Assembly: GCF_004944975.1 (NCBI RefSeq)
Contig: NZ_SPQG01000004.1
Location: 21,867 to 58,091, forward strand
Reading direction: 5' to 3'
Length of the DNA: 36,225 nt
DNA from: Halorhabdus amylolytica
Lineage (GTDB): Archaea; Halobacteriota; Halobacteria; Halobacteriales; Haloarculaceae
Position 1 is the stretch's first letter. Every line of letters begins with the position of its first letter. Shown here one piece after another: positions 24,676-26,640 of the stretch. Made by a program: the position numbers and the translations under genes. Under the pieces are notes generated by a model. The model saw only the letters and a list, made by a program, of their open reading frames with translations, searched no databases and had not been told where the DNA came from.

Positions 24676-25125
24676 TCACTGATCACCGTATTGGTCGTCG
24701 ATGTATCGCGTCAGGTCACCGACGTCGTCGAATTCGCCGCCGCTGGCCTGATCGTACAGTTCGCGATACTCCGTCGGCGTCAACTCGCCGTCGTCACGGA
24801 GTTCGCGTAGACGCTCGCGCTGGGCACGGATGCGCGAGGTCCAGTCTTCTTTCTCGTTCTGTCGGGCACCTGCGGCACCCTTCCGGGACCCGTGTCCCTT
24901 CCCGTGGCCGTAGGCGCGTTTCTCCTGGCGCTCTCTGGCCCGCCCGCGGGAGTTGCCGTCCGGTTCCTCGGCACGGATGATGCCCTGATCGACGAGATCA
25001 CGCAGATCCGCCCGCGTGATCGCCTCGGCGATCTCCTCTTGAGCCTCGGGATCGAACCAGACGCGATTCTTCCCGACGTCCAGAATGTCGGCGGCCATCC
25101 GTTTCTGTGCACTCAGATCAGTCAT
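24676..25125 (-). CDS. rpl19e: Ribosomal protein L19e (eL19)
   Basis: This 149-residue archaeal/eukaryal protein starts [20 protein letters not shown]. It has the basic glycine-rich RKGAAGARQ and GHGKGHG segment in the middle and a helical end ([20 protein letters not shown]). It bridges large and small subunits. Its start overlaps the L32e stop by 8 bases. Confidence 0.97.
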
Positions 25126-26104
25126 CCTCGGTCACCTCGACTTCGACGTAGGTGGGGTTGAGCACGCGGATCCCTTCGTCCTCGGCGACTTCTTCGATGC
25201 GCTCGCGCTTGCGGGCGCCGACCTTCGAGGCGATCCGGACCGCCTCGCGATCGCCGTCCACGCCGTCGAGATCGTCGACGTTGTGGACGCGGACTTCCTC
25301 GAAGCCGGAGGGGTGCAGTCCCCGAACGGCCTCGGGGGTCCGGAACCCGGCTTCGACGGTGTCGCCCTTGCCCTTGATGCCGCGGCGCTGCTTCGAGAGG
25401 CCGCCGCGGGGCCGTCGCCAGGACGTCGGGACGCGCTTTTTCTTGTGGTAATCCTGCCGGTTGAACTGCGGCTTGCCCTCGCGTCGTCGCTGGACGAGTA
25501 GGCGTGCCTCCTCGTCGCTCAACTCTGGCGTCTTCTCTGCGTGCCCGCGCGGGCGCAGTTCCGTCTCGACATCCTCGGCCGCTTCGGGCGCCTCGCCGGC
25601 TTCCTCGACTTCGGCGGTCTCGGCTGCCGAAACGTCGAGTTCGCCGATATCGGCCTGAATCCGGGCCGCCAGGGCGTTACCGATCCCCTCGACGTCAGTC
25701 AGGTCCGACTGCTCGGCACGGGCGACGTCTTCGACCGTCTCGAATCCCGCCTCCCGGAGCGTCTCGGCTTTCTCCTCGCTGACTCCGCTGATGTCCGTCA
25801 GTTCCTCGTAGGACTCGACGGATTCTGCCGCCTCGTCAGCGCTGTCTTCGACCGTCTCGTCCGCGTCGGCCGCGGACTCCTCGATGACGTCCGCCTCGAC
25901 GTCCTCGTCAGGTTCGACGTCACCGACGTCGGCCTTGATCCGGGCGGCCAGCGCGTTGCCGATGCCGTCGACTTCGGTGAGTTGTGCTTCCGTCGCTTCC
26001 CGCAGGTCGGCGACAGTCTCGAAGCCTGCCTCACGAAGTGATGCAGCCGTTCCGTCGCCGATCCCGCTGACGTCCGTCAACTCGGTTCGTTCGTCGTCGG
26101 CCAT
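25118..26104 (-). CDS. rpl32e: Ribosomal protein L32e (eL32) with two N-terminal helix-hairpin-helix modules
   Basis: The C-terminal 140 residues are canonical L32e ([54 protein letters not shown]). The N-terminus carries two near-copies of a HhH module. Copy A is residues 8-63 ([20 protein letters not shown]...[16 protein letters not shown]) and copy B is 101-156 ([20 protein letters not shown]...[16 protein letters not shown]). An acidic linker without basic residues (64-100) joins them. From memory, Haloarcula L32e is about 240 residues with one such module, so this 328-residue form looks like an internal duplication. The frame and the junctions with L6 (one-base overlap) and L19e are intact, so it should be expressed. 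Confidence 0.95.
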
Positions 26105-26640
26105 CAGACCTCACCTCGGTTCGGTTTCTCGGTGATATAGACGCCGTCCTGGAAGACACGGACGTCCTTGTCCGTGACGCGGGTCAGCTGCTCGACGTCC
26201 GCGGCCGTCTGGCCGACGTCCTCGATGCTGGGCCCGCGCAGCGTCATCCGTTCCTCGTCGATCTCCACCTCGGTGTCCCCGTGGATCGGGGTCCGTCGCG
26301 GCGCGCGCTCGCCGAGGAAGTTCTCGATGACGATCTCGCTCTCCTCGGCGCGCACCTGCATCGGGAAGTGAGAGTAGAAGACTTCCATCTCGTACTCCCA
26401 GCCCTCGGTGACGCCGTGGAACATGTTCTGCACGTGGCTCTCGAAGGTCCCGACCGTCGACATCGTCTTTGCATCGTCGGCCTCGGACTCGATGACGACC
26501 GCGTCGTCGGTCACCTCGACGGTGACGTCCGGATACCACAGTCGGCGTGTCACGCTGCCTTCGGGGCCCTCGACGGTGAGCTCGAGATGGTCCATCTCGG
26601 CGCTCACGTCCTCCGGTAACTGTAGTTCTGTGCGTGGCAT
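26104..26640 (-). CDS. rplF: Ribosomal protein L6 (uL6)
   Basis: The 178-residue protein shows the two L6 repeats. It begins [20 protein letters not shown], has [20 protein letters not shown] in the first half, and ends with [20 protein letters not shown]. It lies at the factor-binding site of the large subunit. ATG 26640 is taken because the homologous start follows S8 by 2 bases; the long open frame to 27138 is run-on through S8. Confidence 0.96.

Follow-up and report, generated by a model that had tools for sequence, protein, structure and literature searches.

Ribosomal proteins are generally regarded as conservative markers that evolve slowly. In the 2.4 Å structure of the Haloarcula marismortui 50S subunit, eL32 (1s72_Y) is modeled at residues 95–238 of a 240–241-residue chain, and its single helix-hairpin-helix (HhH) module is absent from the model, which suggests that the module has no fixed position there. 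The eL32 module is not known to have a partner, and a search of PMC texts, with most subscription papers outside its scope, found no paper on the N-terminal HhH module of haloarchaeal L32e/eL32.

Comparable modules occur in NusA, a transcription factor that carries its repeats at the C-terminus, whereas those of eL32 are N-terminal. The AR2 repeat of NusA is a dual helix-hairpin-helix and binds SuhB (PMC6614801), and a 2025 paper reports that it binds the C-terminal domain of the RNA polymerase alpha subunit (PMC12297416). For haloarchaea, transcription-translation coupling has been reported on the basis of RNA polymerase subunits co-isolated with ribosomal proteins, in a report whose main text does not name L32 (PMC8576121). 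Here, we describe an eL32 with two such modules, encoded in a 36,225-nucleotide stretch of Halorhabdus amylolytica DNA (the window), and follow its module number through the class Halobacteria.

Results

The eL32 Gene and Its Internal Repeat

The gene lies on the minus strand in a ribosomal protein operon, between uL6 (before) and eL19 (after) (Table 1). Its core passes PF01655 (Ribosomal_L32e, residues 211–316; 122.2 bits, cut-off 25), and the protein also passes NF006332 (152.4 bits, cut-off 120) and the haloarchaeal eL32 model NF009401/PRK12766 (507.2 bits, cut-off 239). Where PRK12766 specifies a single N-terminal module, the window protein has two: Pfam HHH_5 is found twice ahead of an ordinary eL32 core, at 55.3 and 54.1 bits when scored per copy (cut-off 27).

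Table 1. Positions of the eL32 gene and its parts in the window.
Feature	Position	Strand	Basis
Whole eL32 gene, 328 aa plus stop	25118..26104	minus	
eL32 start codon (ATG) and stop codon	ATG at 26104; stop at 25118-25120	minus	
GAGGTGA, Shine-Dalgarno-like, before the eL32 ATG	26111..26117	minus	sequence
TGATG, uL6 stop overlapping eL32 start	26102..26106	minus	sequence
Copy A, dual HhH module, residues 8-63, hairpins GIG and GIG	25916..26083	minus	
Acidic linker, residues 64-100, 37 aa, net charge -18, predicted disordered	25805..25915	minus	
Copy B, dual HhH module, residues 101-156	25637..25804	minus	
Acidic tail, residues 157-180, net charge -10, predicted disordered	25565..25636	minus	
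eL32 core, residues 181-328	25121..25564	minus	

The two copies align without gaps and are identical at 34 of 56 residues. Their local alignment scores 183, whereas 1000 shuffles gave a mean of 30.3 (s.d. 6.1) and a maximum of 62, which rules out a chance repeat. An assembly error was likewise ruled out, since the complete, single-contig Halorhabdus genomes G003, G004, and G006 also encode two modules. At the DNA level the copies share 113 of 168 nucleotides and only 23 of 56 third codon positions; third positions are thus nearly unrelated, and the duplication must be old. The first-pass annotation had placed an L32e protein at exactly these coordinates, with a repeated HhH module and a 37-residue acidic linker, and all of this is borne out. 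One refinement is needed, as each module is a dual-HhH domain made of two HhH motifs. Three of the four G-h-G hairpins are typical (GIG); the first hairpin of copy B departs from the pattern (GVS, followed by GIG in the second), and a lysine that is constant in single modules is a glutamine in this copy. In many two-module proteins the acidic tail behind copy B resembles, by eye, the start of the linker behind copy A, so that the duplicated unit was probably module plus acidic tail.

The start of the gene is well supported, because both the overlap of its ATG with the uL6 stop and the GAGGTGA motif, presumably the ribosome-binding site, recur in all six Halorhabdus loci inspected. The window frame contains no in-frame ATG, GTG, or TTG between codons 11 and 197, and 40 of 44 two-module eL32 proteins have no internal ATG. 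A one-module isoform made from an internal start is therefore unlikely, and the translation starts lend no support to a removal of copy A, which the first-pass annotation had raised.

AlphaFold gave both modules pLDDT values of mostly 81–94, with linkers below 50. The low pTM (0.26 for whole eL32, 0.38 for the two-module part) points to independent domains on loose tethers, without a fixed arrangement; the modules are accordingly predicted to fold independently on disordered acidic tethers.

We also considered whether a different HhH gene had supplied copy A, the genome having 16 HHH_5 matches in all, 14 of them besides copies A and B. A copies are 48–81% identical to their own copy B (lineage means) and up to 79% identical to eL32 modules of other lineages. 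In this comparison, which covered eL32 modules, such closeness would make borrowing less likely.

Distribution in Halobacteria

The class was represented by an even sample of 391 genomes, 388 with an eL32 match and three without. A profile of two-module proteins gave 33 full-length matches at 491 bits or more, the next match scoring 453 bits. Closer scoring added four short-linker genomes first scored as single, and a second profile, built on the two modules alone, picked up one further genome, whose gene was read as confirmation, while missing two of the 33. Two-module eL32 is thus present in at least 38 of the 391 genomes, which fall into 12 of the 86 genera and represent four families, and in all seven Halorhabdus genomes examined. 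Examples include Halorhabdus salina, Halorientalis, Halovenus, Halomarina, and Salinarchaeum laminariae; names were assigned through identical eL32 proteins for L007/L032 (Halorhabdus salina), L024/L053 (Halomarina rubra), and L017/L045 (Salinarchaeum laminariae). Halorientalis is split, H. salina having one module and H. persicus and H. pallida two. The linker between A and B ranges from 10 to 79 residues, and at least one HhH module was found in every Halobacteria eL32 locus read. In L019, L031, L139, L144, and L146, eL32 has an additional acidic N-terminal extension of roughly 45–110 residues before the first module.

Haloarchaeal eL32 was expected to have one module as a rule, and it does in most of the 391 genomes. 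The uniqueness implied for the window protein was wrong. Whether two modules are common in the group has a divided answer: they are universal in the Halorhabdus genomes sampled and a minority in the class, with repeated changes on the tree. Far from being a one-off, the doubling is a variation that recurs in the evolution of a known ribosomal protein.

Outside the class, eL32 has one recognizable module in 6/6 loci read, and among the matches listed no row from outside Halobacteria reached the copy A part of the two-module profile. One module would then be the older state, and we infer that duplication went from one to two. The outside-class module is neutral to basic in four of the six loci and the next 25 residues are basic in five; in L171, L173, and L174 the single module is followed by a strongly basic stretch, whereas the tail in Halobacteria is acidic.

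Phylogeny of Loci and Modules

A tree of loci was built from six proteins (uL6, uS8, eL19, uL18, uS5, and the eL32 core). L002 and L167 (not eL32 or truncated) and L177–L182 (duplicates or other proteins) were dropped beforehand; 174 loci were reduced to 139 by identity, and 31 of these, mostly close relatives, were thinned to leave 108. Module number changes at least 12 times on this tree. A module tree was built from 72 of 152 modules over 57 columns, and on it the label A needs eight changes.

The L023 genome falls with Haloferacaceae in the six-protein tree, and the parts of its eL32 (L023:1495-2427) disagree with each other. Copy A and linker are identical to the Halomarina-type L028 at 60 of 81 positions, and the tail matches Halomarina-type sequences at 19–25 of 27 (25/27 for L024). 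The core, in contrast, shares 121–129 of 145 residues with Haloferacaceae types and 105–109 with Halomarina types. L023 is thus a chimera, with a Halomarina-like N-terminal block on a Haloferacaceae-like core, and inter-family recombination is the best explanation for it.

Conservation of the Two Copies

Within lineages, dN/dS was 0.12–0.36 for copy A, 0.14–0.27 for copy B, and 0.09–0.25 for the core. Both modules are thus kept as protein, and both copies are under purifying selection. The reference set of 58 single modules comprised the 54 from Halobacteria loci numbered below L165 plus L165, L166, L169, and L170. First hairpin glycines are intact in 58/58 single modules, 28/44 A copies, and 38/44 B copies; second hairpin glycines in 53/58, 28/44, and 42/44, respectively. 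Six positions constant in 54/54 single modules, chosen after the conservation table had been seen, survive as a complete set in 36 of 44 B copies and in two of 44 A copies. The lysine and arginine in the helix of the second hairpin are likewise constant in 54/54 single modules.

Halorhabdus reverses this pattern. There copy A, not B, better keeps the ancestral conserved residues, with five of the six positions retained in every member, while copy B has lost the K in 6/6 and a hairpin G in 4/6. In 43 of 44 two-module proteins, one or both modules have two intact hairpins. This is not clearly above independence, under which both copies would be broken in roughly 3/44 (1/44 seen), the rows being related. 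The pattern looks like redundancy, in which one intact module would suffice and the other would be freed.

HhH Modules on Other Proteins

An eL32-type HhH module is also present at the C-terminus of uS3 in 11 of the 18 genomes of the family to which G237 belongs (L199:1501-2901 and the related loci L200–L209). By genus code these are all ten g37 genomes and the one g154 genome; none was seen in three g48 or four g81 genomes, one of the four being truncated. In four cases compared, the uS3 module was 63–70% identical to the nearest eL32 modules, which belong to other genera, and the idea that it derives specifically from copy A in the eL32 of those genomes is therefore unsupported. Separately, L180:655-2112 is a 486-residue frame with one eL32-like HhH module at 319–375 and only HhH matches in Pfam.

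Discussion

We propose, with a probability of about 0.62, that the second module arose by tandem duplication within the gene, that this has recurred in Halobacteria, and that the modules are flexible docking hooks of which one intact copy suffices. An ordinary large-subunit eL32 would have had its N-terminal dual-HhH module and acidic tail tandemly duplicated. Module number may still be changing, by gains and probably some losses through recombination between the repeats, and the N-terminal block would have moved between families at least once. The modules would leave the ribosome surface as folded hooks on floppy acidic tethers and make weak, short-lived contacts. Their G-h-G hairpins could touch a nucleic-acid backbone, or the modules could bind a protein partner in the manner of the acidic NusA repeats. 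A second hook could add reach or avidity. If one intact hook is enough, the other copy would be released from constraint, usually the distal A and in Halorhabdus the proximal B. The hook function would follow by analogy, from likeness of fold to RadA/Rad51, NusA AR1-AR2, and topoisomerase V together with protein binding by NusA AR2.

The history could have been different: the module would have been duplicated once, in an early ancestor of most Halobacteria, and copy A then lost many times by recombination between the repeats, a mechanically easy step. An AU test on the 57-column module alignment did not reject a single clade of all A copies (p = 0.314), 12 of 22 sampled A copies cluster (support 93/75), and the six-protein tree can be fitted with one gain and 19 losses, all of which leaves room for an old duplication lost many times. 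Equal-cost reconstruction, however, gives 12 gains and no losses. Copy A is nearer to its own B than to the B of other lineages in 11 of 13 lineages (equal in Halorhabdus, lower in Halovenus), the two copies in L048 share 81% identity, and L168 is a lone, recent-looking two-module case amid its single-module sisters L169 and L170. On the other side, when its own group is set apart, copy A is in many cases nearest to single modules rather than to its own B, Halorhabdus included. Taken together, we consider one ancient duplication somewhat unlikely, and in our reading the trees and identities suggest repeated gain of the second module.

As to function, the N-terminal region might be a largely dispensable tail whose copy number drifts without benefit. 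Its patchy distribution inside genera, the variable linkers, and the lack of ordered density in Haloarcula would all fit. Purifying selection on both modules, the invariant K and R in the helix of the second hairpin, and the occurrence of a module in all Halobacteria loci read argue against it, and we regard it as unlikely. Purifying selection on copy A can also be taken, with the residues that A copies share within lineages such as Halovenus, as a sign that the second module acquired a new specific job at another rRNA site or with an external partner, as the first-pass annotation proposed. But most A copies show relaxed conservation of the hairpin glycines and of further residues that are otherwise constant, linkers of 10–79 residues disfavor a fixed second site, and even the single module is unordered on the Haloarcula 50S model. 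A new job is thus quite improbable. The reading in which either copy can serve as a flexible hook is the one that we prefer. Its widest extension, in which dual-HhH modules move about as attachments to haloarchaeal ribosomes (eL32, the L023 block, and uS3) and serve as docking hooks, for example in NusA-like transcription-translation coupling, is speculative and very doubtful.

Within one class, a domain added to a core ribosomal protein thus changes its copy number repeatedly, and it appears to have spread at least once as a chimera. Sister species with one and two modules provide a natural experiment on the role of the haloarchaeal eL32 N-terminal module.

Outside the ribosome, the closest solved fold to copy A is the N-terminal domain of RadA/Rad51 (VIA Z 10.1 over 62 residues, rmsd 2.1 Å; profile E 5.7e-9). 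RadA differs in having one such domain, joined to an ATPase. The two-module profile covers residues 625–748 of the tandem HhH region of topoisomerase V (E 8.7e-8), which is a DNA enzyme. Escherichia coli NusA likewise has two acidic dual-HhH domains in tandem, AR1-AR2, and the profile covers its residues 367–478 in one stretch (E 1e-4). This is a likeness of layout and not of membership, and no NusA N-terminal, S1, or KH domain is among the Pfam matches of the window eL32. The nearest described system is the one-module haloarchaeal eL32 (NF009401/PRK12766, Haloarcula marismortui 1s72_Y). Core, module, and acidic tail are alike, residues 90–326 of the window protein align to 1s72_Y, and what sets the window protein apart is an extra module and tail at the N-terminus.
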